The translations under genes were made by a program, and so were the position numbers. From an uncultured Roseibium sp. (GTDB taxonomy: Bacteria; Pseudomonadota; Alphaproteobacteria; Rhizobiales; Stappiaceae), in the NCBI RefSeq assembly GCF_947494555.1, contig NZ_CANLVF010000002.1:62001-126000 (forward strand): a stretch of DNA of 64,000 nt. The letters are read 5' to 3'. The notes beneath the pieces are model-generated. The model ran no database searches. It saw nothing but the letters and a program-made list of their open reading frames with translations, and was not told the DNA's origin. This document shows positions 11,376-29,970 of the stretch, one piece after another; within the stretch, counting starts at the first letter, position 1, and every line of letters begins with the position of its first letter.

Positions 11376-12296
11376 TCATGAATTGACAGGACATGTGTGG
11401 TTTTGCCGGAGAGCTTCAGTTTGCGCTAGCAGCCAATTGCGAAACTCCCGGACTTTGGTTGAACGCCTCCGCTTGTGTTGGGTGATGAGCCAATAACTCT
11501 TCCCGTCCTCCGCCAGAAGGTCAAAAGGCTGTAAAAGCGCGCCTGTTTCCAATTCACGCTCGAAAAAGGCCGGCGTCAGCAAGGCAACGCCGTGCCCTTC
11601 GATGGCTGCTCGTGCCTCGGCCATTTGTGTTCCGAAATGCCGGGAAGGCTCAGAACCGAAGCAAGACGTCTCGATACCGGCTGCTGCCAGCCAAAAATGC
11701 CACCGCGGGTCTCCTGGCGACACTGCGGGAAACTTCAGAAGGTCTTCGTATCTGGACACACCACCCACACTGACCAAAAGGCGCGGCGACACCATCGGGG
11801 CGAAAACCGCCGGAAACAGCCTGCAGCAGTCCTTGTCACCGAAATTGCCGGCACCAAGGCGAATGGCCATGTCGCAATCGACGGAATCCGGCTCGACACT
11901 GTTTTCACTGATCTCCAACCGCACGCTTATTTTTGGGTTTTGCTCCTGAAAGGACCACAGCGCGCCAGATAGAAAGTGGGTCGCGAAAGTCGGGACTGCG
12001 TTGATCGTAAGGGTCGTTTGTGTCGTTCCAATCGCATCCGCATAGGCTTCACATATCGTGTCCATTGCGGGAACAATCTGGTTCGCAAAGTCTTTCCCGA
12101 CGTTCGTAAGTGATACGCCCCGCGCATGCCGTTCAAACAGCGGGGCGCCGACCCGGTCTTCGAGAACCTTGATTTGGTAACTCACCGCCGCCTGTGTCAT
12201 CGACAGCTCTCCAGATGCTGAGGAAAAGTTTCCGTGTCGTGCGGCCGCATCAAATACGCGTATGGCAGACATAGGAGGAACGTCTCTTGTGAGCAT
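11376..12296 (-). CDS. LysR-family regulator, GcvA-like
   Basis: A 306-residue transcription factor. The N-terminal winged helix-turn-helix reads MSAIRVFDAAARHGNFSSAS and MTQAAVSYQIKVLEDR, the GcvA-subgroup style where the recognition helix contains QAAVSYQIK. The effector-binding domain begins near residue 95. A conserved DCDMAIRLGAGNF segment is the typical DxAIRxG motif of GcvA-like proteins. Position 12296 is the first ATG. An internal ATG at codon 9 (MSAIRV) is an alternative start. The next gene upstream on the same strand is a VOC protein. The target is unknown. LysR proteins often control a divergent neighbour, but none is divergent here, so autoregulation or a distant target is likely. 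Confidence 0.87.
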   Translation of the reverse strand: MLTRDVPPMSAIRVFDAAARHGNFSSASGELSMTQAAVSYQIKVLEDRVGAPLFERHARGVSLTNVGKDFANQIVPAMDTICEAYADAIGTTQTTLTINAVPTFATHFLSGALWSFQEQNPKISVRLEISENSVEPDSVDCDMAIRLGAGNFGDKDCCRLFPAVFAPMVSPRLLVSVGGVSRYEDLLKFPAVSPGDPRWHFWLAAAGIETSCFGSEPSRHFGTQMAEARAAIEGHGVALLTPAFFERELETGALLQPFDLLAEDGKSYWLITQHKRRRSTKVREFRNWLLAQTEALRQNHTCPVNS

Positions 12297-12903: not shown

Positions 12904-13839
12904 ATGATAAGTTCCGTTATTGCGAACCAACAAAAAACACCAAACAATACACAGAGTATCATTTTGGATATTGACTGGAAGGTTCTCCCCTCGCTCACGT
13001 CGCTACGTGCCTTCGAACTGACAGCGCGCAGCGGGAGCTTCGCGTCGGCGGCGCGCGAACTCAACGTCACGCATGCAGCCATCGCCCAACGTGTCCGGTC
13101 CCTGGAAACCCATCTGGGAGCACAACTGGCTCGACGATCGGGGCGGACAGTCGTCCTGACCGAGGCGGGGAAAAAACTGGCGCAGTGCCTGAACGACGGC
13201 TTCGGAACGATTGCCGCCGGCATCAGGGAGTTGCAGGCAGAGCAAACCCAAGCACCTCTTCAGGTCGAGGCCACAGTGCATTTCTCGCAAGCGGTAATTC
13301 TTCCCAAGCTCCACGAGTTCTGGGAAGACTGTCCTGACGTTCAGGTGTCAGTCATGCCGTCTCAGGATATCGAAGACATTGTTTCACTTGGGCTGGATCT
13401 GGCGATCCGCACTGCGCCGACCACGCCAAGCTGGCCCGGTCTGAAGGCCGAGCCCCTCGTTGAGAGCGAACTCATCGTCATTGGCGCACCTTCGATCGTG
13501 AAGGACGACATGGGGCCTCTCGACGAATTGCCCTGGATTTGGTCTACCGGCGTCAAACACGAAGAGGAAGGAATGAGGGCTTTTGGTCTCGATACCCGAT
13601 CAATCAAGAACAATGACGTCGGCGTTCCATTTCTGCAATTCTCTTTGGTTCGGCAAGGCCTTGGCTTGGCTATCGCGCCAGAAATCCTTGTACGAGACGA
13701 GCTCAGGTCAGGACAACTTTACCAAGTTCCCGTCGCGTCGCCGCTGTCGGTAACCTACTATGCCGTGACACCGCTCGGAACCGTCCCGCCTCGCGTCAGG
13801 GCCTTCATCTCCTGGCTGCGAAAAGCCATGGAAAAGTAG
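12904..13839 (+). CDS. LysR-family regulator, GcvA-like
   Basis: A 311-residue protein. After an unusual 25-residue Asn/Gln-rich leader the DNA-binding domain begins with LPSLTSLRAFELTARSGSFA and the recognition helix VTHAAIAQRVRSLETHL. The effector domain carries DLAIRTAPTTPSWPG, the GcvA-like DxAIR motif. A later start is possible because the first 25 residues are not part of the fold. It is divergent from the VOC gene with a 113-bp spacer, which would be the natural site for control of that gene. It is only moderately similar to the LysR protein at 11376-12296, so it is not a recent duplicate. Confidence 0.86.
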   Translation: MISSVIANQQKTPNNTQSIILDIDWKVLPSLTSLRAFELTARSGSFASAARELNVTHAAIAQRVRSLETHLGAQLARRSGRTVVLTEAGKKLAQCLNDGFGTIAAGIRELQAEQTQAPLQVEATVHFSQAVILPKLHEFWEDCPDVQVSVMPSQDIEDIVSLGLDLAIRTAPTTPSWPGLKAEPLVESELIVIGAPSIVKDDMGPLDELPWIWSTGVKHEEEGMRAFGLDTRSIKNNDVGVPFLQFSLVRQGLGLAIAPEILVRDELRSGQLYQVPVASPLSVTYYAVTPLGTVPPRVRAFISWLRKAMEK

Positions 13840-13999: not shown

Positions 14000-16216
14000 T
14001 CAACTTGCCTTGGCAGTTTGGCCCATCAGGACCGGGATCACCTGTTCCGGTGGTCCCATCATGGCGATCTGACCCGATTTGAAAACGACCACACGATCGG
14101 CCATCTTCATATGGCTCGGTCGTTGCGTGTTGATCATAACGGTCGCTGAACCGTGAAGTTCGCTGACCATGTCCATGAAGCGACGGTCACCTTCAAAATC
14201 AAGATGTGTCCCCGGATTGTCGAACAGATAGAGCGGAACGCGTTTGACCAGTGCACGCGCCAGAACAATCCGCTGCTTCATGTTATCGGGTATCTGCTTC
14301 AGGACTTCTCCGTTGAGGCGGGTTTCCAACCCCTCGAAGTTATCTTCCAGATACTGCAGCAAGCCGAGTTTATGCGCGGTTTCGAACAGTCGATCGTCGC
14401 TTGCCCCCGGCTCGGAAAGCAGAAGGTTCTGCTTGACGGTACCGTAAAAGAAGTCGAGATCGTCCGGCGCATACCCTATCTTCGACCGCCATTCACCGGC
14501 ATCAAGCTGCCGGACGTCCAGACCGTCGAAGAGTATTGACCCGACCTGTGGCTGGAAAAGTCCGGTAATGGCCTGGAAGAGCGTTGATTTTCCTGAGCCG
14601 CTCGGGCCCGTCAATGCAATCATCTCACCCTGCTTGGCCGTCAGCTCAACCCCTTTCAAAGACGCTTCCGTCGCACCGGGGTATCGCAGAACAAGAGACG
14701 TGATTTTCAGATCTCCTTGAATGTCTCGGGTGATCTTGGGCAGATACCCGGGCTCACGTTCCAGCGGTACTTTCATGAGATTGTTGATCTGATCGAGAAC
14801 CGTTCTGCTTTGCGCCAGCTGCGTTATGCTCAAGAACGCTTGGTTCATGGGGTTGAGAACACGCCAGGACAGCGCCATCGTCGCAATCAGAGCGCCCAGG
14901 CTCATGTCGTCAATCATGACCTGCAAAGCGCCGATGCCGAGAACAAATACACCGCATATTGTCATCAGCGTCTGAGAAACAGTCTGGAGCAGGTGCGTCA
15001 GGTTTCGCGCATGGACATTGAGCCTGTTGAACTCTGTCGACAAGGTTGAAAACCGTTCGAGCCAGGTGTCTTCAACCGACAGATCCCTGAGGGTTCTTTG
15101 ATTGCGGAATGTTTCGATCATGAAACTGTTCAGCTTCGATTTCTGTTCGCCAACCGCTGCGACTTCGCGCTGTACCTTGGGAAGGACATAAAGGGCGATC
15201 AGCGCGTAGATCACAAGCAGAGCGAGCGGCGGAAAGGCGACGGGCCCGCCGATCAAAAAGATCGCGGTAATGAATATCAATGTGAATGGAATATCGACGA
15301 TGGCGTTGAACAGGGAGCTTTGGAAAATATCCCGGACGCTGTCAAAATACCGCAAGCGCATGACCTGCGTGCCGATCGGCGCTTCCGACAGCATCGCATA
15401 GGGCAGATGCAGAATCCGTTCGAAGGTCTTGTTTCCCACGATCGCGTCGACGCGACCGCCGAGATAGGACTGAAGAACGTTTTTGGTTTTCCGCAGCGCA
15501 ATTTCGCTGACAAGAATAATTGCGATTCCAACGGCCATCGTGATCAGAACATCGATGGATTTCGCGCCCATGGCCTTGTCATAGATTGCCATGATAAAGA
15601 GCGGCGGGCCGAGCGCGAGGACATTCAAGATGAAGCCGATTGCCAGTATCGATACGATGCTGGACCGAAACTGTTTCGACGCCATGGAGGACCAGCTTCG
15701 ACTGCTCTTGACCTGGCTGGTTTCCTCGGCTTCCTCTTTGACGAGATAGACGTCGGCCCGTGCGATGTCTTTTTCAGACAAGGTCTCCGCCTGAGCCGTT
15801 TTGCCGGAATAGGCGCGAAATCCGCCGCTCGGGGTTTTACTCGCCAGCACCTGGATGTCGTCGTCGGTGACGCGCAGACACGGCAGGTGCGCTTCTGTCA
15901 GCTCGACCGGACTGCCGCGAAAAGGAGCAGAGGACACGTTGATACGATTGAGGACCGTGCGAAGATCCTGAATTGTTTCTATTCTGTCGAAGTGAGGAAG
16001 CGCCTCAAAAAGCAGACGATCATTGCCTTGCCAGTTCATTTCGCGCAACAGGGGAACGAGACATTTTTCCGCCGGTGTCGTGCCTTCGCCCAGTTTACTG
16101 AACGCCGTTTCGTCCCCGCGCTCACTGGTCAACTCTTCCGACAGCGCGTTCCACTGCCGGTGTACGGGGTTCGTTCCCGAATTCAGATCTTCCAGGTCAA
16201 ATAGCGCACGGGTCAC
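14000..16216 (-). CDS. Type I secretion ABC transporter subunit with C39-like N-terminal domain and degenerate ATPase
   Basis: 738 residues. Residues 1-150 look like the non-catalytic C39-like domain of LapB/HlyB-type exporters (for example KCLVPLLREMNWQGNDRLLF and LPCLRVTDDDIQVL), which docks substrate; no Cys-His protease dyad is evident. Six membrane helices follow at about 185-450 and then the nucleotide-binding domain. Walker A is intact (GPSGSGKST, Lys543). Walker B reads YLFDNPG, so the catalytic Glu is Asn667. The H-loop His is Gln698 (NTQRPS). The LSGGQ signature is replaced by KQIPDNMKQR. Such an NBD should bind ATP but hydrolyse it poorly. The ATG overlaps the stop of the upstream ABC gene by four bases, so the two are probably made together as a heterodimer. 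Confidence 0.88.
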   Translation of the reverse strand: MTRALFDLEDLNSGTNPVHRQWNALSEELTSERGDETAFSKLGEGTTPAEKCLVPLLREMNWQGNDRLLFEALPHFDRIETIQDLRTVLNRINVSSAPFRGSPVELTEAHLPCLRVTDDDIQVLASKTPSGGFRAYSGKTAQAETLSEKDIARADVYLVKEEAEETSQVKSSRSWSSMASKQFRSSIVSILAIGFILNVLALGPPLFIMAIYDKAMGAKSIDVLITMAVGIAIILVSEIALRKTKNVLQSYLGGRVDAIVGNKTFERILHLPYAMLSEAPIGTQVMRLRYFDSVRDIFQSSLFNAIVDIPFTLIFITAIFLIGGPVAFPPLALLVIYALIALYVLPKVQREVAAVGEQKSKLNSFMIETFRNQRTLRDLSVEDTWLERFSTLSTEFNRLNVHARNLTHLLQTVSQTLMTICGVFVLGIGALQVMIDDMSLGALIATMALSWRVLNPMNQAFLSITQLAQSRTVLDQINNLMKVPLEREPGYLPKITRDIQGDLKITSLVLRYPGATEASLKGVELTAKQGEMIALTGPSGSGKSTLFQAITGLFQPQVGSILFDGLDVRQLDAGEWRSKIGYAPDDLDFFYGTVKQNLLLSEPGASDDRLFETAHKLGLLQYLEDNFEGLETRLNGEVLKQIPDNMKQRIVLARALVKRVPLYLFDNPGTHLDFEGDRRFMDMVSELHGSATVMINTQRPSHMKMADRVVVFKSGQIAMMGPPEQVIPVLMGQTAKAS

Positions 16217-17943
16217 GCTGACAGGCCTACTGTTGCCGAAGGGGTGTGGTCAGCGTTACCGAGTTCGAGAAGCTTTCCGTCGCCGAGTTGAAATTGTCGA
16301 TCCGCGACTGCGAGCATCGATGGGCGGTGGCTCACGATTATGACGGTGAGATATCCCTTAAGCCGTTCAAGGGCCGCCACCAGCCCTTTCTCAGCCTGCT
16401 GATCCAATTGGGCATTCGCTTCATCAAGGATGAGAATGTTCGGCTCACCGGCAAGCGCCCTGGCGATGCAAATACGTTGAATTGTCGAGGCAGGCACCTT
16501 TCCGCCCAGGTCGGCACCAAGCTGTGTGTCGTATCCCTTGGGAAGCAGGTGAATTTCCTTCTCCAGCCCGATAAGTTTTGCCGCCATGCGGGCATGATTA
16601 ATGTCGGAAACCGCACCAAACATGGTTATGTTTTCCAGAATTGTCCCATTGAAAACTGCGGACTTGCTGTCGACATAGGCGATCGTCTTGCGCAACGCAT
16701 GTTTGTGGGGACCTGAAAAATCGTAACCGCCAATGAGGATCTTGCCCTCATCCGGCGACACTTCGCCGGCCAGCAACTTCATGAGGGTTGTCATACCGCT
16801 GCCATCGGTACCACGAAACCCGATAAATTCGCCGGCATTTACATTCAGGTTCATGTTCGTAAAGACTTGCCGCCGCCCATTTTGGAGATGCATTTCGACA
16901 CCACGGAATTGAATGGATCCGTCGGCTTTCACGTCGGGCGCGTCGCTCATCTCCACTTCGGGAAGATCGAAAAGCACTTCCACCTGGCTATAGTCGTGTT
17001 TCAAGCGCTGCATGTCGGTGAGATGGTTTATTGCGCGCAGGAAGGGCTGGACAAATTGACCCGCGAGCAATGTGCTTGCCGCAACACCTCCGATGCTGAA
17101 GCCGTCATTGATCACCATCACGGCACCGCAGAGCACTACAGCGGCAGTGGTCATTGTCGCAAAAAGGCCTGACGCATCCCTCGCCTGCCCGGCAAGCCGC
17201 ATGTATCTGGCGCTCAGCCGAGCTGTTTCTTTTTGCAGGCGTTCGAACCGGCGCATGATCAGCGATTCCATCGCCTGAGACTTCACCGTTTTCGCGCCGG
17301 AGAGCACCTCCAGAATAAAGTCGGATTTTCGATCGTCCTGTGTGGCCCGGTCGACCACGACCGTCTGCAGAGCCCTGTTTCGACTGAGCGCAAAGAGAAC
17401 GAAGACGCCAAGCAAAATGACCGGGACGAGAGCCAGCGGGCCAGCGATGAACACCAGCACGGCAAGAAAGATCCCGCCAGCGGGAAGATCGATGGCCAGC
17501 AACCGGCTTTGATCGCCGTAATGGTCCGCGATCGACTGAAGAGATCTCAGCCGATGGACCTGAACAGAAACCGGTGTCCGTGCAAAGTCCTGCGGTTTCG
17601 TGTCCAGTATGCGGCGAAACAGTTCCTTGTGGGCCTGGTGATTGAAACTCGCTCCAAGCCGCCCCACAATTGCCGCGCGCGCCACTTTGATCACGCCATC
17701 TGCGACAAGAACGCAGACCACTCCGAGCATGAGCACAAGCAGCGTATCGGTTGATGCATTCGGCAAGACCCGGTCGTAGACCTGCAAAATGGCAAGCGGC
17801 ATCGCCAAACCGAGCATATTTGCAAAGATTGATGCGATCACGACATCTCGTGGTAATCGCGGGGACGATATCCACTTGCTGCTCGGCGAATGCCGTATTC
17901 GCATCCGAGGCAGGAAAAAAGATGAAAATGCTGATTTCAACAT
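16213..17943 (-). CDS. Type I secretion ABC transporter subunit with Walker A Lys-to-Met substitution
   Basis: 576 residues, the size of PrtD/HasD-type exporters without an N-terminal peptidase-like domain. Six membrane helices are followed by an NBD. Walker A reads GTDGSGMTTL: the invariant Lys is Met384, encoded by ATG at 16794-16792. Walker B is intact (LILDEA, Asp507 and Glu508) and the H-loop is intact (VSHRPS, His539). The signature region reads GGKVPASTIQR instead of LSGGQ. The defects are complementary to those of the following, overlapping gene. It is divergent from the giant adhesin gene across 186 bp, the arrangement expected for a dedicated type I secretion system. No outer-membrane TolC-like gene is nearby. 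Confidence 0.88.
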   Translation of the reverse strand: MLKSAFSSFFLPRMRIRHSPSSKWISSPRLPRDVVIASIFANMLGLAMPLAILQVYDRVLPNASTDTLLVLMLGVVCVLVADGVIKVARAAIVGRLGASFNHQAHKELFRRILDTKPQDFARTPVSVQVHRLRSLQSIADHYGDQSRLLAIDLPAGGIFLAVLVFIAGPLALVPVILLGVFVLFALSRNRALQTVVVDRATQDDRKSDFILEVLSGAKTVKSQAMESLIMRRFERLQKETARLSARYMRLAGQARDASGLFATMTTAAVVLCGAVMVINDGFSIGGVAASTLLAGQFVQPFLRAINHLTDMQRLKHDYSQVEVLFDLPEVEMSDAPDVKADGSIQFRGVEMHLQNGRRQVFTNMNLNVNAGEFIGFRGTDGSGMTTLMKLLAGEVSPDEGKILIGGYDFSGPHKHALRKTIAYVDSKSAVFNGTILENITMFGAVSDINHARMAAKLIGLEKEIHLLPKGYDTQLGADLGGKVPASTIQRICIARALAGEPNILILDEANAQLDQQAEKGLVAALERLKGYLTVIIVSHRPSMLAVADRQFQLGDGKLLELGNADHTPSATVGLSA

Positions 17944-18129
17944 AAGTTAGCCAGAGTCGTGTGCATGCTTTAACAAAGTGTGTCGCTCCGGTTTAAAAAC
18001 AGTTTACCCTAAGCGGCATTTCTCAAAATTATTGCTGCAATACCAATAGTTTTTGTTCAAAATTTTTCGCTTTATTAAGGACGCCGTCGTTCAGTGGCAT
18101 GATCAAAAATTGTGCGGACAGGCGAGCGG

Positions 18130-21100
18130 ATGGCAAGCGACTCGGAAAATCGGGATCAACAGACCAACACGCGGTCGACTGAAGAAAACACCGAGACAAG
18201 ATCGACCCTTAGTTCAGATAGCCATCTTCATTCGGGACTGCTCGATTCAAATGACCAGCATCTCGACAAGGTCCATGACTACCACCTGCATCAGGACAAA
18301 GGTGTTTCCAGCGAGCAGGTGAATGCCAATCTCCATTTGGGCAGCCACAAGGCGGAGCCGATCAAGACCGACGAAGAGCAGTCAGCCAAACATTTGCTCG
18401 AACTCGAGAAAGAAGCATCCGCAGCTTCTGAACTTTCGACATTGCCCGATACCCCTTTAGGCGAAGATGCCGCGCAGACCACCGCTAACCTTTCTGGATT
18501 TGCCTTAACTCCGGGTGTTGAACAGCAACACGGTTCCAATGGCTCAGCATCGCAATCTCCCATCCTTGCCGAGCAGGCTTCTGGTGTCGCCACCGAGTTT
18601 GAACAACCGGAAGAGGACAGCACTCAGCAGACAGGGACTGGTTCTGCAATAAGCAGTTCAGCGTCCTCGCCGTCCGCGGAGCAGGTTTCGGTCCAAGAAG
18701 GAACGCCTGCTGAAGCGCAAGCCTCTGAATTATCATCCATTGTCGATACAGATGCAGGTCAAAATACCGTTGATGAAGATGCAGTCGTCGGAACGGCCAC
18801 GGGTATTTCCGCGAGAGCGGGTGTCTCTGAAGGGTCCAGTGTTACCTACAGCCTGCTTGATGATGCCAACGGCCTGTTTTCAATTGATCCCGCGACGGGC
18901 ATCGTCAGCGTTGCAGGGCAATTGGATGCGGAAACGGCGACACAGCATGACATCGTGGTACTCGCAACTTCATCCGACGGGCAAACGCAAACGGAAACCT
19001 TCACAATCGAGATTGGAGACGTTGACGAAGGCGACGTTGCAGCGATTACAGATGTAAATGCGGCGTCAGATGCAATCGCGGAAAACGCTGCCGCCGGATC
19101 AAGTGTCGGCATAACGGCAAAGGCCACCGACGAGGATGCTACTGCTAGCGTTTCTTATTCGGTCGATGATCCCAGGTTCGATATCGACGGCAACGGGATT
19201 GTGACAGTTGCAGCAGGTGCGACATTCGACGCCGAGACCGAAGCTACTGTGAGCCTGACGGTAATCGCGACTTCGAGTGACGGGTCGCAATCTACTCAGG
19301 TCTTCAATCTATCCGTTTCGGACATCGACGAATTTGCGGTTACGGATCTCTCAGATACGAATTCGGCGGCAAACGCGATCGCCGAAAACGCAGCAGCTGG
19401 CGACAATGTCGGAATATCGGCCTTTGCTGAAGATTCGGATCTCACAGACACTGTTACGTATTCCATCGATGACGATCGTTTTGACGTGGCTTCCGATGGC
19501 ACGATCCAGGTTGCTGCCGATGCCGACTTTGACGCGGAAACCGAAAGCTCTATCGATGTCATCGTTACAGCTCTATCCACGGATGGCTCAACGTCGCAGG
19601 AAACCTTCACAATCACCGTTTCCGATGCAAACGAATATGTTGTGAGCGCGGTATCTGATGCAGATTCTGCGGCCAATCAAATATCCGAAGATGCAACGGC
19701 CGGAACTGCAGTCGGGGTCACCGCCTCGGCGGCGGACGCAGATGTTTCGGACAGCGTAACTTACTCTGTCGATGACAACCGCTTTGAGGTTGATGCAGAC
19801 GGCATTGTCAGTGTCGCGAGCGGTGCGACCTTCGACGCGGAGACCGAGCAATCAATTGACGTCGAGGTGACGGCCCACTCTACGGATGGCTCAACCAGCA
19901 CGCAGACATTCACGATAAACGTTTCGGACGTCAACGAAACTGCCGTGAGTGCGGTGTCTGATGAGGATGCTGCGGCCAATCAGATATCCGAAGACGCAAC
20001 GGCTGGAACTGCAGTCGGGGTCACCGCCTCGGCGGCAGACGCAGATGTTTCGGACAGCGTAACCTACTCTGCCGATGACAACCGCTTTGAGGTTGATGCA
20101 GACGGCATTGTCACTGTTGCGAGCGGTGCGACCTTCGATGCGGAAACCGAGCAGTCAATTGACGTCGAGGTGACAGCACAGTCAACGGATGGCTCCATCA
20201 GCACTCAGACTTTTACGATCAACGTTTCGGACGTCAACGAAACTGCCGTGAGCGCGGTATCCGATACGGATTCTACGGCAAATCAGATATCCGAAGACGC
20301 AACGGCCGGAACTGCGGTCGGGATCACTGCTTCAGCAGCGGACGCGGACGTTTCCGATAGTGTCACCTACACCGTCGATGACAACCGCTTTGAAGTAGAT
20401 GCGGACGGCATTGTCACTGTTGCGAGCGGTGCGGTTTTTGATACGGAAACCGAACAGTCGATCGACGTCGAAGTGACGGCACAGTCGACAGACGGCTCCA
20501 CAAGTGCACAGACATTCACGGTGCAGGTAGGAAACGTCAACGACAATGCGCCAACCGGCATTCAGGTCACCGGTCAGACCGGTAATCTGATCCAGAACGG
20601 AAGCTTCGAGTCCTTCGATGTTACGACCGGAGATTATTCCCACGAATTGTCCGACCCTTCAGGGGCCTGGATGTCCAATGGTCCTATGGAAATCTGGGAT
20701 CACCACAATAGTGTTACCGCAACGGATGGCGACCAGCATCTTGAGCTCGATTCCAACAGCGGCGTAAATTCCATTTCCCAATCCGTGGAAACCAGCGCCG
20801 GACAGGTCTACGAGCTCACGCTAGATGCCGTTGCACGCACCAACTCTGCCACGAGCACTGTTGAAATCTATTGGAACGGAGAACTTGTCTCCAGTTTCGA
20901 CCCGGATGCAGGAAGCTGGTCCAGTTTTGACTTCCAGGTCGTTGGCACAGGCGGCACAGATACGCTTGAATTCCGGGAAACCGCAGAAGACGACGACCAG
21001 TATGGCGCTCTGATCGACAATGTTTCCCTGACTGAAGTGCCGCTGACAATTGCCGAAGGCGTGACGGGCGCGGTTGTCGGAACCGTGACCACCAGCGACG

Positions 21101-24100
21101 CTGACCTAAGCGACACGCATGCATATTCGGTCTCTGACAATCGATTTGAAGTCGTGGACAATGGCAGCAGCGGCATGGTGCTCAAACTCAAGGATACCGA
21201 AAGCCTTGATCGCGAGACTGAGCAAAGCGTCACTGTTACGGTCACCACTACGGACAGCGGCGGTCTCACACATTCTGAGGATGTCACGATTTCCATCGCC
21301 GACGTTTCGGAGTTCTCAGTGTCTGCGGTCGCAGACAGTGACGCCAACAGCAACACCGTTTCCGAAGCCGCTACTACCGGCGACACCGTCGGGGTCACAG
21401 CATCGGCGAGCGATGGAGACGCGACAGACACGGTTTCGTATTCCGTCGACGACAACCGGTTTGACATCGCAGACGATGGCGTTCTGACAGTTGCCAGCGG
21501 TGCAAGTTTCGACGCAGAGACGGAGAGCTCGGTCAATGTGACCGTGACGGTGCTCTCCTCAGACGGATCCACATCTCAGGAAACCTTTACGATCGGCGTT
21601 GCCGACGTCAATGAATACTCCGTTTCCAGTGTCGTGGACGCAAACGCTGGAACGAACACAATTGCGGAGGACGCAGCCGAGGGAACCAGTGTCGGCATAA
21701 CCGCCTCCGCATCCGACGGAGACCTGACCGACACTGTATCCTACACGGTCGACAACGCCCGATTTGATGTTGCCTCAGACGGAACGGTCACCGTTGCGTC
21801 CGGTGCTGAATTCGATTTTGAAAGCGAGCCGACGGTTTCGATTACCGTCACCGCGACCTCAACCGATGGATCCGTCACGCAGGAAACGTTTGACATAGAC
21901 GTCACCGACGTCGCTGAAACCTTCGAACTGGCTGCCGGGCAAACTGTCTTTGTGGACGAAGGAGTTGCCGAGCCGACGATAATCGGCACCGACAACGCGG
22001 AAACAATTACGGCGCACGACGACGGAAGTGCCATCTATAGCGGCGGCGGAGCCGACACCCTTCACGGCGGCGCCGGAGATGATCATCTCATTTATGGAAC
22101 CGGTGCCGATACCGTTACCGGCGGCGACGGCGACGATTTCATTGACGATGAAGTCGGAACGCGTATCAGCACGGAAGACAATCATCTCGACGGCGGCGCC
22201 GGAAACGACACGATCTATGGCGGCGGCGGAGACGACACGCTTGTCGGTGGTGACGGGAACGACGTCCTTTCAGGCGAAGAAGACGACGACACGCTTCAGG
22301 GTGGCGGCGGCAACGACCAGTTGTCCGGCGGTACTGGCAACGACACCGCAATCTACTCCGGAAACAGAGACGACTACACGATTGTGGAGAACCTGGACGG
22401 GTCCTTCACGATCACCGATACGCGCTCCGGCTCTCCAGACGGAACGGACACGGTCAGCGATGTGGAAACCTTCCAATTTGCCGATGGCGATGTTCTGGCC
22501 GGGGATCTGATACCCGAGGCCATCGGCGCGGTCTCGGACGCTGATGCGAGCGCAAACGAGGTTTCTGAAAATGCGGTTTCCGGTGACAGTGTTGGTGTCG
22601 CGGCCAATGCACTTGATGGCAATGTCTCCGACACCATTTCCTACACTGTCGACGATGCTCGTTTCAATGTGGCTGCAGACGGCACGGTTACGGTCGCAGA
22701 CAATGCTGTATTCAACTACGAAACCGAGTCCTCCGTCACGATCACGGTGACCGCGACGTCGTCCGACGGGACAAGTTCGCAGGAAACCTTCTCGATCGAT
22801 GTGGCGGATGTCGCCGAGACCATGCAACTCACTGACGACGGTGTCACAATGACCGACACCGGGGTTGCAGAGACGGCAATCTCCGGCGGAACCGGTGACG
22901 ATACGATCACGGCCCATGAAGATGGCGGCGTCATTGATGGCGGAGATGGTGTCGATACTGTCATGGGCGGGGCTGGAGACGACACACTCGACGGTGGCGC
23001 AGGTGTTGACAATGACACACTCCAGGGCGGCGAAGGCAGCGACACCTATCTTCTGCGCGGCGATGGGCGTGCCGACATCATTTCGGACACCGGAACAGCC
23101 GGCGTTGACCGGATCGTCCTGTCCGCCAATACCGGAACTGAATTCGAACTGGAAGATACGTTCAATGCCGCAACGCAGGGCATAGAAGAAATTGACGGTA
23201 GCGCGGTGTCGGGCGAGACCCTGCGCGCGCAGCGCAGCGATGCGCAAATCGATTGGGATTTCACGGGAGTCACCCTGAATAGCGTCGATCAGATCGAGGG
23301 CCGTGACCGGGACGACTCAATAACCGGCTCGTCGGGCGACGATAATATCCTCGGTGGCGGTGGCGACGATACGCTTGCCGGTAGCGAAGGTGACGACACG
23401 ATCGATGGCGGTTCAGGAACCGACACCGTTCGTTATTCCGGAAACCGCGCCGATTACACCGTGAGCGAAAATGCTGGCACAATCACGATTGTCGATATGC
23501 GCACCGGTTCACCTGATGGCACCGACACGCTGACGAATGTCGAGACCTTCGAGTTTGCCGACGGGACCTATTCGGCGGGAGATCTCGTTGACCTGGCTCC
23601 GACAGATATCTCCTTTGACGCCAACGAAAGCCTTTCGGTCACGCAATCGGGCGGTGGCGATGCCGTTGTCACGGGCGAAATCGTTTCAGACGGATCCGGC
23701 AACCTGTCTGTCGACCACTGGTCGCTAAGCCACGACGGTGGCGAACTGATTATCGACGTTCTCGCCGGCGGATACGAAAGTGGCAGCCTTGACAGCCAAA
23801 TCTACCTGTACAGGGACAATGGCGGCGGCGATTTCACTCTCGTGGCGGGCAATGACGATGGATCAGCCGGAAGCGATGGCAGCACGCAGTCTTATGATTC
23901 CTACCTTTCCCTGACCGGACTGGATGCCGGTGACTACGTTGTTGTCATTGGTGGCTGGCCGCTGAGCGGCAGTGAAGCCTTGAGCACGGCATCGGACTAT
24001 CCGGGCTCGGGGTCAAACACCGGCCCTTACCAGATAACGATCACCGGTGATGCTTCGGTGTCAGGTCTTGCTCAGAACCCTGTCGGCGGGGGCGATTGGG

Positions 24101-25515
24101 GTGACCCTGGCAACAATGGGGTGGTCATCTCCGACGGCGCCGTTATGTCGACTATCGCAGCCGGGACCGTCGTCGCCGGTATCGAAACCGTGGCAGACGC
24201 CAATACGGGCGACACCTTCCATTTCAGTTTTTCGGATGCAGGCAACGGCGCGCTGGAAATCGATACAAACAGCGGCGACATATCCCTCGCCGCTCAACAC
24301 GACGCCACAGCATCGCTCAGCGACACTGTCACGGTAGAAGTGACCGATTCAGCCAACAAGACCTATCAGGAAACAGTTGGCATCGAACTCGGTACGACGG
24401 GCGACGACACGATCACCGGCACCATGGCTAATGATGTTGTGTTCGGTTTTGGTGGAAACGACACGATCGACGGCGGTGATGGCACCGATATGGTCGTGCT
24501 TTCCGGCAATCAGGCTGACTACAACATTTACGACAATGGCGATGGCAGTCAGACCGTCATCGACATGCGTTCCGGATCGCCCGACGGCACGAACACGGTT
24601 TCCAATGTCGAGGCCTACAGTTTTGCCGACGGAAGCGTTCAGGTGGCCGATCTGACTTACAGCACCGAGCTGCTGCTCTCTGACGCGAACGGGTCGAGCA
24701 ACACGATCCACGAGGCAGCGGATTCCGGGACTGAGGTCGGAATTTCCGTTTCCGCGATCAACCCGGGTGGCGGCACGCTTACTTATGCACTTGATGACGA
24801 CAGGTTCACCATTGACGCGGACGGCATTGTTTCAATCGCAGAGCATGCCTTTTTCGACAGCCAGGTTGAAAGTTCAATCGACCTGACGGTTACAGCCACC
24901 TCGTCAGACGGCTCCCAGGCTACTGAAACCTTCTCGGTCTCCGTCAGCAACCACTACGACTACAACATGACCGGCGGCCTTGCGGACGGCAGCTTTACTG
25001 GGTCCTCGGCTCAGTCCTACTCGGTTGATGGTATCGGTGGAAACGATGTCATCGAGACCGGAGAGTTCAACGACCGCGTCGATGGCGGATCTGTGGCCGG
25101 CAACGACCAGATCACCGGAAATGGTGGACGGGACCTGTTGTTCGGTGAAGGTGGACAGGACACGATCTACGGCGGTTCCGGCGATGACATCATCGTTGGC
25201 GGCGCTGGCGACGATACACTTCATGGCGACGATGGTTCAGACCTGTTCATGCACGGACTTGGAGACGGCAACGACACCATCTATGGCGGCACCGGCAGCG
25301 CTTGGACCGATGTGATAGATCTTGGAGGCGGTCCGGGGGTAACCGCGGCGGGAGAATACGGCACCGATTGGACCGTTACCATCACAAACGGCAGTGTGCA
25401 GAATACGGATACCGAAAACGGCCGCCTTGAACTTTCGGAAGACGCTGAGGGAACGATTGATTTCTCAGACGGAACGAAAGTGGATTTCGCTCAGATCGAA
25501 GAGATCCGCTGGTAA
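18130..25515 (+). CDS. Giant cadherin-like/RTX repeat adhesin, type I secretion substrate
   Basis: 2,461 residues, highly acidic. Residues 1-205 are low-complexity with a His-rich stretch (8 His between 32 and 73). About ten or more cadherin-like repeats of roughly 101 residues follow, with the core D.RF.V..DG...VA.GA.FD.E.E. A globular insert at about 819-970 (from NLIQNGSFESFD) resembles carbohydrate-binding jelly-roll modules. RTX nonapeptide blocks (GGxGxDxxx, calcium-binding) lie at about 1286-1424, 1580-1640, 1735-1765, 2090-2120 and near the C-terminus. Another insert at about 1824-1977 resembles a PPC/DVUA0089-like domain. The last 80 residues, ending in FAQIEEIRW, form a typical uncleaved type I signal. 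I place the start at the ATG 18130, which follows AGGCGAG, rather than at the GTG 18112. Role inferred: surface attachment or biofilm. Confidence 0.88.
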   Translation: MASDSENRDQQTNTRSTEENTETRSTLSSDSHLHSGLLDSNDQHLDKVHDYHLHQDKGVSSEQVNANLHLGSHKAEPIKTDEEQSAKHLLELEKEASAASELSTLPDTPLGEDAAQTTANLSGFALTPGVEQQHGSNGSASQSPILAEQASGVATEFEQPEEDSTQQTGTGSAISSSASSPSAEQVSVQEGTPAEAQASELSSIVDTDAGQNTVDEDAVVGTATGISARAGVSEGSSVTYSLLDDANGLFSIDPATGIVSVAGQLDAETATQHDIVVLATSSDGQTQTETFTIEIGDVDEGDVAAITDVNAASDAIAENAAAGSSVGITAKATDEDATASVSYSVDDPRFDIDGNGIVTVAAGATFDAETEATVSLTVIATSSDGSQSTQVFNLSVSDIDEFAVTDLSDTNSAANAIAENAAAGDNVGISAFAEDSDLTDTVTYSIDDDRFDVASDGTIQVAADADFDAETESSIDVIVTALSTDGSTSQETFTITVSDANEYVVSAVSDADSAANQISEDATAGTAVGVTASAADADVSDSVTYSVDDNRFEVDADGIVSVASGATFDAETEQSIDVEVTAHSTDGSTSTQTFTINVSDVNETAVSAVSDEDAAANQISEDATAGTAVGVTASAADADVSDSVTYSADDNRFEVDADGIVTVASGATFDAETEQSIDVEVTAQSTDGSISTQTFTINVSDVNETAVSAVSDTDSTANQISEDATAGTAVGITASAADADVSDSVTYTVDDNRFEVDADGIVTVASGAVFDTETEQSIDVEVTAQSTDGSTSAQTFTVQVGNVNDNAPTGIQVTGQTGNLIQNGSFESFDVTTGDYSHELSDPSGAWMSNGPMEIWDHHNSVTATDGDQHLELDSNSGVNSISQSVETSAGQVYELTLDAVARTNSATSTVEIYWNGELVSSFDPDAGSWSSFDFQVVGTGGTDTLEFRETAEDDDQYGALIDNVSLTEVPLTIAEGVTGAVVGTVTTSDADLSDTHAYSVSDNRFEVVDNGSSGMVLKLKDTESLDRETEQSVTVTVTTTDSGGLTHSEDVTISIADVSEFSVSAVADSDANSNTVSEAATTGDTVGVTASASDGDATDTVSYSVDDNRFDIADDGVLTVASGASFDAETESSVNVTVTVLSSDGSTSQETFTIGVADVNEYSVSSVVDANAGTNTIAEDAAEGTSVGITASASDGDLTDTVSYTVDNARFDVASDGTVTVASGAEFDFESEPTVSITVTATSTDGSVTQETFDIDVTDVAETFELAAGQTVFVDEGVAEPTIIGTDNAETITAHDDGSAIYSGGGADTLHGGAGDDHLIYGTGADTVTGGDGDDFIDDEVGTRISTEDNHLDGGAGNDTIYGGGGDDTLVGGDGNDVLSGEEDDDTLQGGGGNDQLSGGTGNDTAIYSGNRDDYTIVENLDGSFTITDTRSGSPDGTDTVSDVETFQFADGDVLAGDLIPEAIGAVSDADASANEVSENAVSGDSVGVAANALDGNVSDTISYTVDDARFNVAADGTVTVADNAVFNYETESSVTITVTATSSDGTSSQETFSIDVADVAETMQLTDDGVTMTDTGVAETAISGGTGDDTITAHEDGGVIDGGDGVDTVMGGAGDDTLDGGAGVDNDTLQGGEGSDTYLLRGDGRADIISDTGTAGVDRIVLSANTGTEFELEDTFNAATQGIEEIDGSAVSGETLRAQRSDAQIDWDFTGVTLNSVDQIEGRDRDDSITGSSGDDNILGGGGDDTLAGSEGDDTIDGGSGTDTVRYSGNRADYTVSENAGTITIVDMRTGSPDGTDTLTNVETFEFADGTYSAGDLVDLAPTDISFDANESLSVTQSGGGDAVVTGEIVSDGSGNLSVDHWSLSHDGGELIIDVLAGGYESGSLDSQIYLYRDNGGGDFTLVAGNDDGSAGSDGSTQSYDSYLSLTGLDAGDYVVVIGGWPLSGSEALSTASDYPGSGSNTGPYQITITGDASVSGLAQNPVGGGDWGDPGNNGVVISDGAVMSTIAAGTVVAGIETVADANTGDTFHFSFSDAGNGALEIDTNSGDISLAAQHDATASLSDTVTVEVTDSANKTYQETVGIELGTTGDDTITGTMANDVVFGFGGNDTIDGGDGTDMVVLSGNQADYNIYDNGDGSQTVIDMRSGSPDGTNTVSNVEAYSFADGSVQVADLTYSTELLLSDANGSSNTIHEAADSGTEVGISVSAINPGGGTLTYALDDDRFTIDADGIVSIAEHAFFDSQVESSIDLTVTATSSDGSQATETFSVSVSNHYDYNMTGGLADGSFTGSSAQSYSVDGIGGNDVIETGEFNDRVDGGSVAGNDQITGNGGRDLLFGEGGQDTIYGGSGDDIIVGGAGDDTLHGDDGSDLFMHGLGDGNDTIYGGTGSAWTDVIDLGGGPGVTAAGEYGTDWTVTITNGSVQNTDTENGRLELSEDAEGTIDFSDGTKVDFAQIEEIRW
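19654..20562 (+). repeat. Three near-identical 303-bp tandem repeats inside the adhesin gene
   Basis: The units begin at 19654, 19957 and 20260, exactly 303 bp (101 codons) apart, each starting at a Ser-Asp codon pair after a Val. The encoded repeats differ by only a few residues (for example YSVDD, YSADD, YTVDD), and long DNA stretches are identical, while the neighbouring cadherin-like repeats are much more diverged. This marks a recent in-register duplication, or conversion, of one domain. Confidence 0.85.
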
Positions 25516-25816: not shown

Positions 25817-27136
25817 CTATCGCTCGCTAAGCGGATCGCCAATCGCCCGCGTCACCGGTTTCAGCAGATATTGCATGACCGATTTGGATCCGGTGACAAT
25901 CTTGGCATCGACGACCATTCCTGGAGAAATTGTTTCGGCCTGTGCTCCAGCTCCGATCATGTTGGAGGACAAGGGTATCGTCGCCTTGAAGTAATAGTGT
26001 CCGTATTCGTCCCGGAAGCTGGACGCCGAAACAACTGACACCTCACCTGTCAGCGTGCCCTGGATGTTGGGGTCGAATGTCGTGACCGCAATTTCGGCTT
26101 TGTCGCCAACCTCAACATGTCCGATATCGCGGGGGGATACGCGCACTTCCGCGACCAGATCGCTGTTGCTCGGAACAATCTCTGCAACGACGTCGCCGGG
26201 CGCAAGAACACTGCCCGGCCCCTTGAGGTTGAGGGCCTTGATATGACCGCTCGCCGGGGCTCTGACATAAAGCCGGTCAAAACGGTCCCGCTGTTTTTCA
26301 GCTTCGAATGCGAGCTCGTTCCTCTCTTGAACAACTCTGCTCCGTTCCTCGGCAAGTTCTTCTTCCGATGCAGCGGCTGAACGCGCAAGTCCTGCTTTGG
26401 CTTCCGCCAGCTGCGCTTGTGCGCGCCCCTTCCGGCCGACCAGCTCGCTTAGCTCGCTTTGTGCGAGTTGGAGTGCGGATTTTGCATCCAGAAAGCGCCG
26501 CTTCGACGTGTAGCCCTGGTCGAACAGAGATTCCTGGATCGAGAATTTTTCCTGTTCGATTTCGACCTGCGTTTTCTGGAAGGCAATCCGTTCGACCACC
26601 GTAGATAGCTCGGCTTCCTTCTCGTTGATGCGTGCCTTAAGCGCCTGCTGTTCCTGTTCGAGAGCTTTTTGCTGCGCTTCCAGCGCTGCCTTTTGTGCTT
26701 CGCTGAATTCAAAGTTGTCCGTTAGCCTCAATGCTCCGCCCAAGGTGTCCAGGGGATAAACAGTCAGCCGCTGCTCTTCGCGGGCCAGAAACTGAAGACG
26801 GGTTCTGACACGTTCAAGGTCGCTGGAGGTTGCCGTTTCCTGAAGTCGGACGAGCGGTGTTCCTTGCTCAACCAGTTGTCCTTCCTGAACCAGGACTTCG
26901 GCGACAATTCCACCTTCAAGATGCCCGACTGTCTGCACTTTTCCGGCAGGTACGATCTCGCCGGAGGCTTTGGCGACTTCCCTCACCTGTCCGATAACGG
27001 ACCAGCCCAGGAAGGCCGCTGCACCAATAGACAGCACCTGAAGGATGCGCCGATACGCAACGGGCGGCGGCCCCTCCTCAAGCTCGAGGGGCATGTCCAG
27101 AGAGTAATCTTCTTTGATGGCTTTGCGGCGAAACAT
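25817..27136 (-). CDS. HlyD-family type I secretion periplasmic adaptor (membrane fusion protein)
   Basis: About 440 residues. A short cytoplasmic N-terminus is followed by one membrane helix (ILQVLSIGAAAFLGWSVIG, about residues 30-50). Next comes the lipoyl half GHLEGGIVAEVLVQEGQLVEQ, a long coiled-coil rich in Glu, Gln, Lys and Ala (about 100-285), the second lipoyl half VRAPASGHIKAL, and the C-terminal beta region. It would bridge the two ABC subunits and an outer-membrane channel during export of the adhesin. The frame opens with TTG at 27151. The ATG at 27136 (MFRRKAIKEDYS) is preferred. It lies downstream of, and convergent with, the adhesin, separated by 301 bp, and is therefore not in the ABC operon. 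Confidence 0.9.
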   Translation of the reverse strand: MFRRKAIKEDYSLDMPLELEEGPPPVAYRRILQVLSIGAAAFLGWSVIGQVREVAKASGEIVPAGKVQTVGHLEGGIVAEVLVQEGQLVEQGTPLVRLQETATSSDLERVRTRLQFLAREEQRLTVYPLDTLGGALRLTDNFEFSEAQKAALEAQQKALEQEQQALKARINEKEAELSTVVERIAFQKTQVEIEQEKFSIQESLFDQGYTSKRRFLDAKSALQLAQSELSELVGRKGRAQAQLAEAKAGLARSAAASEEELAEERSRVVQERNELAFEAEKQRDRFDRLYVRAPASGHIKALNLKGPGSVLAPGDVVAEIVPSNSDLVAEVRVSPRDIGHVEVGDKAEIAVTTFDPNIQGTLTGEVSVVSASSFRDEYGHYYFKATIPLSSNMIGAGAQAETISPGMVVDAKIVTGSKSVMQYLLKPVTRAIGDPLSER

Positions 27137-27234
27137 ATCAGCTTTACGCAACTCGGAACGATAGGTCCCCGACAGTGCGTGATTAAAGTAAATATCTACT
27201 GAATCAATCGGTTAAAAGGCGTGGTCGTCGGCGC

Positions 27235-27969: not shown

Positions 27970-29970
27970 TCAGCCCGCGTTTCTGGCTTTCGCCCGAGCG
28001 GCCTCGGTTTTTTCGATTGCCTTCAAGAGATAGCGGTCACGGTCATAGATATCCGAATAGAACTCAACGCCGTTGCCATCCTGCTCCGGCCATGCCGTAA
28101 AATATGCCACATAAACCGGAATATCGCCGGTGACCTTTTCCTGCTCATTTTGGCCGGCCGCGATTCGAGACGTCACGTAGTCCTTGGACTTTCCGAGCAC
28201 TGCTGCCGCCATGCCCTTCGGGTCGTGCAGCCGGATGCATCCGTGGCTATAGGCTCGAACGTCCTTGTTGAACAGGTTCTTTGCGGGCGTGTCGTGCATG
28301 TAGATGTGGTGCCGGTTCGGAAAAAGAATCTTAACTTCACCAAGTGCATTGGACCGGCCCGGGTATTGCCGGACGTTGATAGACTGCTGTCTTGCCGCGA
28401 CCGCATACCAGTTCACCGATGCAGACGAAACCTTGCGCCCGCCAGGTGTTGTGACCTCATAGCCGGCTCGGTCGAGATAAGACGGGTCCCGCGCGAGTTT
28501 TGGAACCATTTCGTTGACGATAATCGAATAGGGAACGCCCCAATACGGATTGTATTCAACGATTTCAATCTTGTCATAGAAGAAATTGGTCTGGTTGGAT
28601 TTCTTGCCGACAACAACGCGCATGGACAGCGGATCTTCGCCCGGCGCCGTATATGTTGCCGTGAAAGCCGCCTGATTGATGAACACCTTGCGGGTGCCGA
28701 GATTTTCCGGGATCCACCTGCTCCGCTCCATCGCAAGTTCAACCTTGGCAATCTTGGCGGCATTTGTCTCGCCGACGAGCGCCTTGATCGTGTTCTTGCC
28801 GATTATTCCGTCAGGCGTGAGGCCCGCTTCCTTTTGAAAAGCCTTCACAAGCGCAACAAGTTCGGGTCCATAGACCTCAGCGCCTTCATATGCTGCGAGC
28901 GTCTCGTTGTGTGTCTGTTTCAATTCATCCGAGCCGTTCATTGTAATGGCGGCAACGATGTGTTTCAGCTCCGGGCTCGACTTTCCCGCTTTCAGGAAGG
29001 TGCCTGGGGCGATGACGATCTGCTCGGAGCTATCGTCTTCCTCTTTCAGCCGTTCCAACTCCACAGTCAGTTTACGGAAGTGTTCGTTTTGCGGCTGGTG
29101 ACCCCGAAGTTCGTCCGAAACGCTTGATGTGGACGAAAGCACTTCCAGTGCGGCAACAAGGTCAACCTCGTGCCGGGGGAGATCGTGATATTGCGAAATC
29201 CTGTTGGGATCGATTCGCCCGCGTGTCGCATCGAGAACATATGTCAGGGCGGCAGCACTCATTTCCATCTCAAAACGCATCATTGCTGCAATGCGTTCGG
29301 CTTCATCAAGACCTGAGACAGCGGGGAGCGGAACGAAGTAATCCGATGGAACGAGACCGAATTTGTCACTTGATGCCAATGATTTGCGAAGCTGCGCCGC
29401 TTTGAGCGTGACACCATTGCCCTCGACCCAGACAAAATCCGGATGCTCGCGGTAGTAGGCGATGAGAGCTTCGCCGACTTCAGGCAGAACCCTCAAGTCC
29501 AGATCCTTCAGTGCCGGACGGCCCTTGTCGAATGCGGTCAGCACGGCCGGAGAAGCAGGTACCAAATCGGTTTCAACGGCCGCGGTGTTCTCGCTCTCTC
29601 CGTCCGTGGTCGTTGGCTGGATTTCAGCCGTCTTCTTTTCCGAGAGCGGCGACAGCGAAACTTTTTTCAAAGCATCAGGCGAGTAGTTCAGGTAACGCGG
29701 TGCAGCGACTTTTACGGAAACAGCCTTCTTGCGCAGCTGTTCCTGGCGTTTGCGTTCTTGTTGCCTGCGATGATTTTCCGGATTGAACAGGCGCTGGAAG
29801 AGGCCTTGCGCCTCAGCTGTTGCCGGAGCTGCCATACTGAAACCGGACGCTAGCACCGTTGCCATAAGGCACGCCTTCAATGACGCGACAGACACGGCGC
29901 GAATTCCGATTGTGCGTCCATATTTGCGACGGGTTGGTTCCATATCGTTTATCATTTGGCTCGCCTGCAT
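27970..29970 (-). CDS. YcbB-like L,D-transpeptidase with peptidoglycan-binding domain
   Basis: 666 residues. A signal peptide or anchor lies at about residues 30-52 (ACLMATVLASGFSMAAPATA). A Lys/Arg/Gln-rich region follows, then a long helical scaffold domain as in YcbB/LdtD. A PG_binding_1 domain lies near 365-400 (ALVKAFQKEAGLTPDGIIGK). The YkuD catalytic domain has the motif YSHGCIRLHDP with the Cys near residue 578, and MHDTPAKNLF just before it. These periplasmic enzymes form 3-3 cross-links between diaminopimelate residues of peptidoglycan, or attach proteins to it. Several in-frame ATGs (29970, 29955, 29943) are possible starts; AGGCGAG eight bases upstream favours 29955. A strong terminator follows. 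Confidence 0.92.
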   Translation of the reverse strand: MQASQMINDMEPTRRKYGRTIGIRAVSVASLKACLMATVLASGFSMAAPATAEAQGLFQRLFNPENHRRQQERKRQEQLRKKAVSVKVAAPRYLNYSPDALKKVSLSPLSEKKTAEIQPTTTDGESENTAAVETDLVPASPAVLTAFDKGRPALKDLDLRVLPEVGEALIAYYREHPDFVWVEGNGVTLKAAQLRKSLASSDKFGLVPSDYFVPLPAVSGLDEAERIAAMMRFEMEMSAAALTYVLDATRGRIDPNRISQYHDLPRHEVDLVAALEVLSSTSSVSDELRGHQPQNEHFRKLTVELERLKEEDDSSEQIVIAPGTFLKAGKSSPELKHIVAAITMNGSDELKQTHNETLAAYEGAEVYGPELVALVKAFQKEAGLTPDGIIGKNTIKALVGETNAAKIAKVELAMERSRWIPENLGTRKVFINQAAFTATYTAPGEDPLSMRVVVGKKSNQTNFFYDKIEIVEYNPYWGVPYSIIVNEMVPKLARDPSYLDRAGYEVTTPGGRKVSSASVNWYAVAARQQSINVRQYPGRSNALGEVKILFPNRHHIYMHDTPAKNLFNKDVRAYSHGCIRLHDPKGMAAAVLGKSKDYVTSRIAAGQNEQEKVTGDIPVYVAYFTAWPEQDGNGVEFYSDIYDRDRYLLKAIEKTEAARAKARNAG

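Follow-up and report, generated by a model that had tools for sequence, protein, structure and literature searches.

How does an exporter work when neither of its ATP sites is complete? This question is raised by two adjoining genes, here called A and B, in a 64,000-nucleotide stretch of the genome of an uncultured Roseibium sp. (the whole stretch is referred to as the window). They encode the two halves of a putative type I secretion exporter of the ATP-binding cassette (ABC) kind and lie beside genes for a giant RTX adhesin and a HlyD-type adaptor. An earlier note on this DNA had described both composite ATP sites as defective in complementary ways, and had offered an unusual mechanism, participation of another ATPase or loss of function as explanations. 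We find that the deeper conserved feature is the altered signature motif in both chains, which the note had listed but not stressed, and that A and B belong to a well-supported family of paired exporters. The reading that we tentatively prefer, while holding it slightly more likely to be wrong than right when all its parts are taken jointly, is that A/B is a functional obligate heterodimeric exporter in which ATP gates transport rather than driving it by hydrolysis. How type I systems use ATP is debated, and the A/B family offers a natural experiment on that question.

Altered ATP-site motifs in the exporter pair of the window

The features on which the argument rests are as follows (coordinates are those of the window; the window genome comprises 7.0 Mb in 22 contigs).

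16213..17943, minus strand: subunit A, 576 aa, a short ABC exporter half with a transmembrane domain and a nucleotide-binding domain (NBD) and without an N-terminal C39-like domain; PF00664 and PF00005 over gathering score
16792..16794, minus strand: codon 384 of A, ATG (Met) where the Walker A Lys is expected; private among 23 close orthologues
16474..16494, minus strand: altered signature of A, PASTIQR, residues 484-490
16420..16422, minus strand: codon 508 of A, Walker B Glu, intact
16327..16329, minus strand: codon 539 of A, H-loop His, intact
14000..16216, minus strand: subunit B, 738 aa, an ABC exporter half with an N-terminal domain; ABC_membrane and ABC_tran over gathering score
14588..14590, minus strand: codon 543 of B, Walker A Lys; Lys in 157/158 aligned B sequences
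14270..14290, minus strand: altered signature of B, PDNMKQR, residues 643-649
14216..14218, minus strand: codon 667 of B, Asn where the Walker B Glu is expected; Asn in 23/23 close orthologues
14123..14125, minus strand: codon 698 of B, Gln where the H-loop His is expected; Gln in 23/23 close orthologues
18112..25515, plus strand: giant cadherin/RTX protein, 2467 aa, open frame divergent from A/B, presumed substrate
25817..27151, minus strand: HlyD-type periplasmic adaptor, 444 aa, open frame; TIGR01843 305 bits, cut-off 209

All six residues that the earlier note had named (Met384, Glu508 and His539 of A; Lys543, Asn667 and Gln698 of B) were present at these positions, as were the two replacements of LSGGQ, and the motifs bear out its statement that a heterodimer would have no canonical composite site. 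The Q-loop Gln is also missing from both chains (Ser426 in A, Asp585 in B), and the 576-aa chain lacks the A-loop Tyr. Coordinates and open frames agree with its description of intact genes, of a 4-base overlap between A and B, and of an RTX gene and a HlyD adaptor nearby. Each chain has the features by which a type I secretion ABC protein was recognised here: ABC_membrane together with ABC_tran, and a HlyD-type adaptor and an RTX gene encoded alongside. The curated models for the ABC proteins of type I systems (TIGR03375, TIGR01842, TIGR01846) rank first for A and B, though both chains stay under the cut-off for all of them; with the best NCBIfam model, TIGR03375, A reached 364 bits (profile 149-686) and B 446 bits (residues 50-730) against a cut-off of 693.

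The canonical signature is absent from both chains throughout the family

In a normal ABC dimer the signature loop closes the ATP sandwich. The tally of motif residues covered 160 A and 158 B sequences, of which many are related to one another (156-158 B sequences were readable, depending on the position). The signature Gln was kept in 0/160 A and 0/156 B, and the signature Ser in 11/160 A and 43/157 B, with Pro standing there instead in 123/160 A and 88/157 B. The Walker A Lys was found in 105/160 A and 157/158 B, the Walker B Glu in 119/160 A and 86/156 B, and the H-loop His in 66/160 A and 71/156 B. Other residues were kept in nearly all or all sequences, namely the Walker B Asp (155/156) and A-loop Tyr (147/158) of B and the D-loop Asp of A (160/160). 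A canonical ABC ATPase site, that is, an LSGGQ-type signature facing intact Walker A/B and H-loop, was absent from all A/B pairs tallied, and the pairs likewise lack the one canonical composite site of degenerate-site heterodimers. The idea that a canonical signature was concealed by misalignment was rejected, because the trailing residues QR..AR align plainly in most rows.

As controls, 27 canonical type I ABC proteins of the LssB, HlyB-like and PrtD kinds were used (20 from genomes with A/B and the 7 of the window genome). LS[GSA]G[QE] was kept in 27/27, and the 25 that were aligned all had the Walker A Lys, Q-loop Gln, Walker B Glu and H-loop His. Seventeen ABC rows of the window genome were aligned with A and B; one of these rows (L004) is A of the window, and the 16 others all have an LS-x-G-type signature (LSGGQ, LSAGQ, LSGGE, LSLGE or LSVGE) and retain the Walker A Lys and the Walker B Asp and Glu. 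Set against these 16 rows, the motif pattern of A/B in the window genome is more than chance.

Hydrolysis could have survived the change of signature. A heterodimer of this kind would hydrolyse ATP with an LPxGxxQR-type loop in any chain that has Lys, Glu and His, and slowing would be confined to some lineages. Among the 155 complete pairs this triad is intact in both chains of 15 and in one chain of 67; the ATP-binding residues of B are kept in nearly all, and the post-signature residues QR..AR are still alignable, all as such an enzyme would have it. The complete loss of the signature Gln and the frequent Ser-to-Pro change argue against it, as do the 73 pairs, the window's among them, in which neither chain has the triad. 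In 33/155 pairs no chain combines the Walker A Lys with the Walker B Glu, and 21/155 have no Walker B Glu whatever. We consider a hydrolysing heterodimer unlikely.

Close orthologues separate traits of the family from those of the window genome

Relatives of A were sought within the taxonomic family at E 1e-100 or better. They occurred in 35/87 genomes, the window genome included, and all 40 other places were fetched: 22 at ~70-95% identity (clade I, 23 members with the window), 15 near 50% (clade II) and 3 near 45% (clade III). Named records with an A relative at at least 70% identity (n = 14) are titled Roseibium, Labrenzia or Stappia. A and B were both present in 41/41 loci, with an adjoining RTX match in 40/41 (missing in L084; short only in L063). 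The C-terminus of the adhesin is kept in clade I where read, as EEIRW or, in L068, EEIRWG, and has a related form in clades II and III; the adhesin ends of L092 and L094 are unlike those of the three clades.

The signatures of A and B alike were altered in 41/41 loci of clades I-III. In clade I, Asn667 and Gln698 were each found in 23/23 members. The Walker A position of A is Lys in 21/23, Met in the window and Leu in L082, and codon 384 is AAG in the sister genome and ATG in the window, a one-base difference. Clade II has Arg for the Walker A Lys of A, Asp or Asn for the Walker B Glu of A and B, and Tyr for the H-loop His of B; in clade III the Walker A and H-loop positions of A are Arg and Tyr, and the Walker B Glu of B is replaced by Asp.

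The conservation of M384, N667 and Q698 had been put forward in the earlier note as a check on a functional non-canonical exporter. N667 and Q698 passed it; M384, with Lys in 21/23 orthologues, was rejected as a family trait. Since M384 is private, defects that are complementary are a trait of the window genome and not of the family. Taken alone, Met384 could result from an error in sequencing or be a neutral change private to the window genome, whose pair would otherwise equal that of its relatives; this would be compatible with every other reading discussed here. The single-base difference from the sister genome and the Lys of most orthologues fit that explanation; the loss of the same position elsewhere (Leu in L082; Arg, Asp, Val, Cys and others in further lineages) does not, and we regard an error or neutral change as conceivable but somewhat doubtful.

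Purifying selection and the order of losses

A quick maximum-likelihood tree was built from 34 pairs and 27 canonical proteins; in it A formed one clade (SH-aLRT 100) and B another (SH-aLRT 99), with a branching order that is similar by eye. A and B were still clades in a tree of the transmembrane part, where the canonical set did not fall on one side, so that A and B can be called sisters only tentatively. The minimum numbers of changes on the tree were 3 (Lys), 4 (Glu), 7 (His) and 9 (Q-loop) for A, and 0, 3, 5 and 4, respectively, for B. The Walker B Glu and H-loop His thus appear to have been lost repeatedly in different lineages. Because no member has an unaltered signature and L159 and L221 keep all else, the simplest order suggested by present-day states is that the signature was lost first and the other residues later and repeatedly. 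Both halves would probably have given up the canonical signature before the sampled lineages diverged.

The ratio of nonsynonymous to synonymous substitution (dN/dS, Nei-Gojobori) was calculated for 20 pair comparisons (10 A, 10 B). It ranged over 0.02-0.17, with 12/20 comparisons within 0.03-0.06; for A and for B the two highest values came from L073/L074, where dS is very low, and from L098/L099. Between the window and its sister the NBDs gave 0.043 (A) and 0.034 (B). Against more distant relatives dS was near or beyond saturation, and per-domain values there (dS infinite in part) were left out. Changes that could be assigned to the window and sister branches numbered 4 and 5 in A and 6 and 3 in B, with 18 (A) and 25 (B) unassigned.

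These values bear on decay, in which the motif losses would be drift in a dying transporter, as the earlier note had allowed in its suggestion of a system losing function. The residues lost do differ by lineage, the window adds its private Met384, the A frame of L226 is split by a stop, and the adhesin end is atypical in L092 and L094. The low dN/dS of both chains, and of the NBDs between window and sister, speaks against decay, as do the similar numbers of assignable changes on the two branches and the open frames across many families and genera. On the low dN/dS and the wide spread we rejected decay of the locus, which is very improbable as an explanation of the motif losses; the A/B genes are under purifying selection. 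The signature has been removed from both sites and Lys, Glu and His piecemeal by lineage, yet the exporter genes are under selection.

A recurrent operon in a widespread family

The wider family was sought with a profile of A; every genome count includes the window genome. Matches were found in 71/397 sampled genomes (30/141 genera) of the order, in 39/385 sampled genomes (32/277 genera) of the class and, at a looser limit, in 52/398 sampled genomes of the phylum. Loci were fetched for 61/70 out-of-family places in the order, all 39 other places in the class and 20 places in the phylum; of 141 loci, four (L165, L168, L218, L226) were left out for want of a usable A or B.

The recurrent operon is A-B-HlyD, with HlyD usually next to B and the RTX gene often divergent. 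Open reading frames (ORFs) were grouped by single linkage, some of the groups being apparently antisense frames (for example those in 106 and 37 loci). In the 129 loci that remained after the window's family had been thinned to few members, A/B-type ABC ORFs were present in 129, the HlyD group in 121, the RTX group in 87 and a group with a TolC-like OEP example in 46. From this gene context, the neighbouring RTX adhesin is the likely substrate, and A and B are likely to make up a single dimer. The heterodimer is further supported by similar trees and by A-B fusions, A and B being a single open frame in 11 loci (L153, L236, L252-L260). A named fusion, WP_148219661.1 of Azospirillum sp. B510 (1363 aa), adjoins HlyD and a giant Ig-like protein. 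Such fusions are natural single-chain versions for biochemistry. In L252, L254, L255, L256 and L257 the fusion has a HlyD-matching frame on both flanks.

The three named members that were looked up, from Azospirillum sp. B510, Phaeobacter gallaeciensis and P. piscinae, are annotated merely as 'ATP-binding cassette domain-containing protein' or 'ABC transporter transmembrane domain-containing protein'. Searches that rely on LSGGQ or on curated type I cut-offs may therefore undercount type I systems.

A dedicated extra ATPase in the operon was considered and rejected on the four group examples searched from the 14 most frequent ORF groups in the 129 loci. These were the OEP protein, a GGDEF regulator, a DUF2336 protein (group in 9/129 loci) and an AAA_16/LuxR-type ORF (group in 8/129). 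The regulator group lies near the operon in 29/129 loci; the one example searched (L181:1-1464, minus strand), a response regulator, carries PAS and GGDEF domains, a hint of regulation by cyclic-di-GMP.

Other type I systems in genomes with A/B

The next question is whether a canonical exporter could supply the energy. A and B would then be accessory or scaffold parts of a mixed complex that is energised by a canonical type I ATPase. The HlyB/HlyD complex offers an analogy: of its three HlyB dimers only one is transport competent, according to an excerpt of PMC9751043. Other type I systems were scored in 80 of the 101 genomes with A/B, using the curated PrtD, LssB, HlyB and HlyD cut-offs. PrtD-type proteins were over cut-off in 66 genomes, LssB-type in 26 and either in 70, as a scaffold role would allow; the window genome (G000) itself has seven canonical type I ABC proteins over cut-off, five PrtD-type and two LssB-type.

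Ten of the 80 genomes were without PrtD, LssB or HlyB over cut-off, the HlyB search being confined to these ten. Six of them (G037, G085, G132, G178, G254, G256) had no type I HlyD over cut-off other than the one beside B. The assembly of G256 is a single contig with a completeness rating of 100%; those of G132 and G178 are drafts with about 300 and 220 contigs. Among the remaining four, G118 and G294 are fragmented assemblies, G237 has three HlyD proteins above the cut-off, and G202 has one, together with additional ABC proteins close to a weakly matching HlyD. By the cut-offs tested, the altered pair appears to be the only recognisable type I exporter in some genomes. Among the six sole-system pairs no triad was found in L092 (G037), L099 (G085), L205 (G254) or L251 (G256), one was found in L158 (G132) and two in L159 (G178).

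Several features of this comparison weigh against our preferred reading. It relies on curated cut-offs, which may miss odd proteins, and the candidates scored per genome were at most the best 15 (PrtD), 12 (LssB) or 48 (HlyB). The six genomes also hold other ABC exporters, the best of which reach 352-397 bits on the HlyB model, above A/B (cut-off 726). The adhesin end of L092 is atypical, and a neighbouring gene is unreadable in one of the six.

Near the pair itself, a third ABC ORF was found only in L241 and L248 among the fetched loci (flanks up to about 7.5 kb). This, and the six genomes without a type I ABC match over cut-off, argue against a scaffold role, which we consider improbable. 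Because of these 6/80 genomes, the participation of another ATPase, as proposed in the earlier note, is unlikely as a general answer; for the window genome, with its seven type I ABC proteins, the proposal keeps more of its force.

Pairs on Phaeobacter plasmids

In the plasmid pairs of P. gallaeciensis and P. piscinae (L293, L294) neither chain has kept the Walker A Lys, the Walker B Asp or the H-loop His, though the Walker B Glu remains; HlyD and a large PA14-domain gene lie alongside. Between the species the paired chains are 92% and 91% identical, and the differences fall mainly at third codon positions (124/188 and 150/226). The A gene was found in 11 Phaeobacter plasmid records. Because their scores against the A/B profiles are lower (329 and 384 bits), these pairs may be a side branch. 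A search of the class with the Phaeobacter B matched 20/289 genomes at 29-32% identity, 19 of which had already been found with the A profile, and gave no close chromosomal relative among the 289. The Walker A Lys of B as an absolutely essential residue was rejected on these pairs.

Relation to known systems

Single-chain models were of middling confidence (A, pLDDT 75.0 and pTM 0.53; B, pLDDT 67.5 and pTM 0.42), so the fold searches confirm merely a HlyB-like fold: for A and B the nearest was HlyB at TM-scores of about 0.4-0.5, and TM287/288, TmrAB and BmrCD ranked below HlyB and PCAT1. By profile, the closest solved relative of A is Escherichia coli HlyB-HlyD (7sgr, 8dck). HlyB is a single ABC protein that dimerises with itself, whereas A/B consists of two different halves. 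In this respect A/B resembles TM287/288, TmrAB and BmrCD, also made of two different half-transporters; a review (PMC7756269) gives exporters of this sort one degenerate and one active site, whereas A/B has a canonical signature at neither. The LssB-type is alike in that TIGR03375 is the best NCBIfam model for both chains and is matched by B over nearly its full length, and differs in that A and B fall far below its cut-off (scores above) while LssB-type proteins from genomes with A/B have canonical motifs.

The nearest precedent, likened by published gene layout, is the two-ABC system for MARTX toxins in Vibrio and others. In PMC3034196 and PMC4316617 its ABC proteins RtxB and RtxE are both described as apparently necessary, and a heterodimer is suggested. 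Like A/B, the MARTX system as described there has two ABC proteins and HlyD with a divergent giant RTX gene, and its export also uses TolC. HlyD lies between the ABC genes in MARTX loci (rtxBDE), whereas the order here is A-B-HlyD or, in the window's clade, HlyD beyond the adhesin. Among the open-licence PMC papers searched, none was found that describes altered signatures in both chains of a type I secretion ABC pair.

A possible mechanism of export

Under the preferred reading, A/B would act with HlyD and a TolC-like channel to export the giant RTX adhesin encoded next to it. The pair would no longer be powered by repeated ATP hydrolysis and would show little or no cycling; ATP on the retained Walker A of B would act as a gate or structural ligand. 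Other forces, for instance the proton motive force and Ca2+-driven folding of the RTX repeats outside, would account for most of the one-way passage of the unfolded adhesin. ATP gating at B is favoured because B keeps the ATP-holding residues, A keeps the D-loop and neither keeps the signature. That hydrolysis is absent, that ATP gates and that other forces drive export is what we infer. Both kinds of ATP use have been entertained for type I systems: a part of PMC5018854 sets out continuous hydrolysis per substrate stretch and ATP as the opener of a gated channel as alternatives, and relates that a Ca2+-driven ratchet was reported for CyaA.

Further observations add to those of the sole-system comparison in weighing against this reading. 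The hydrolysis-deficient H-loop mutant H662A of HlyB brought no substrate to the cell surface, and the rate of HlyA secretion was independent of external Ca2+ (both from the same part of PMC5018854); these results go against hydrolysis-free export and a Ca2+ ratchet in the HlyA system. With a K/E/H triad in at least one chain of 82/155 pairs, some members may hydrolyse ATP with an altered signature. The Walker A Lys of B is missing in two Phaeobacter species, so the ATP-gate step cannot be universal.

In its broadest form the proposal would be that a widespread family of type I exporters can do without any hydrolysing ABC site and still carry proteins thousands of residues long across two membranes, with ATP at most a gate and with membrane potential and outside folding as power. 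We regard this broad form as possible, yet on balance doubtful. If true, the family would represent a natural hydrolysis-free type I secretion system.

Neighbouring genes in the window

Two LysR-like regulator genes, judged by eye, adjoin the exporter genes (11376-12296, minus strand; 12904-13839, plus strand). Beyond the HlyD gene lies an L,D-transpeptidase of the YkuD/Scaffold kind (27970-29970, minus strand).

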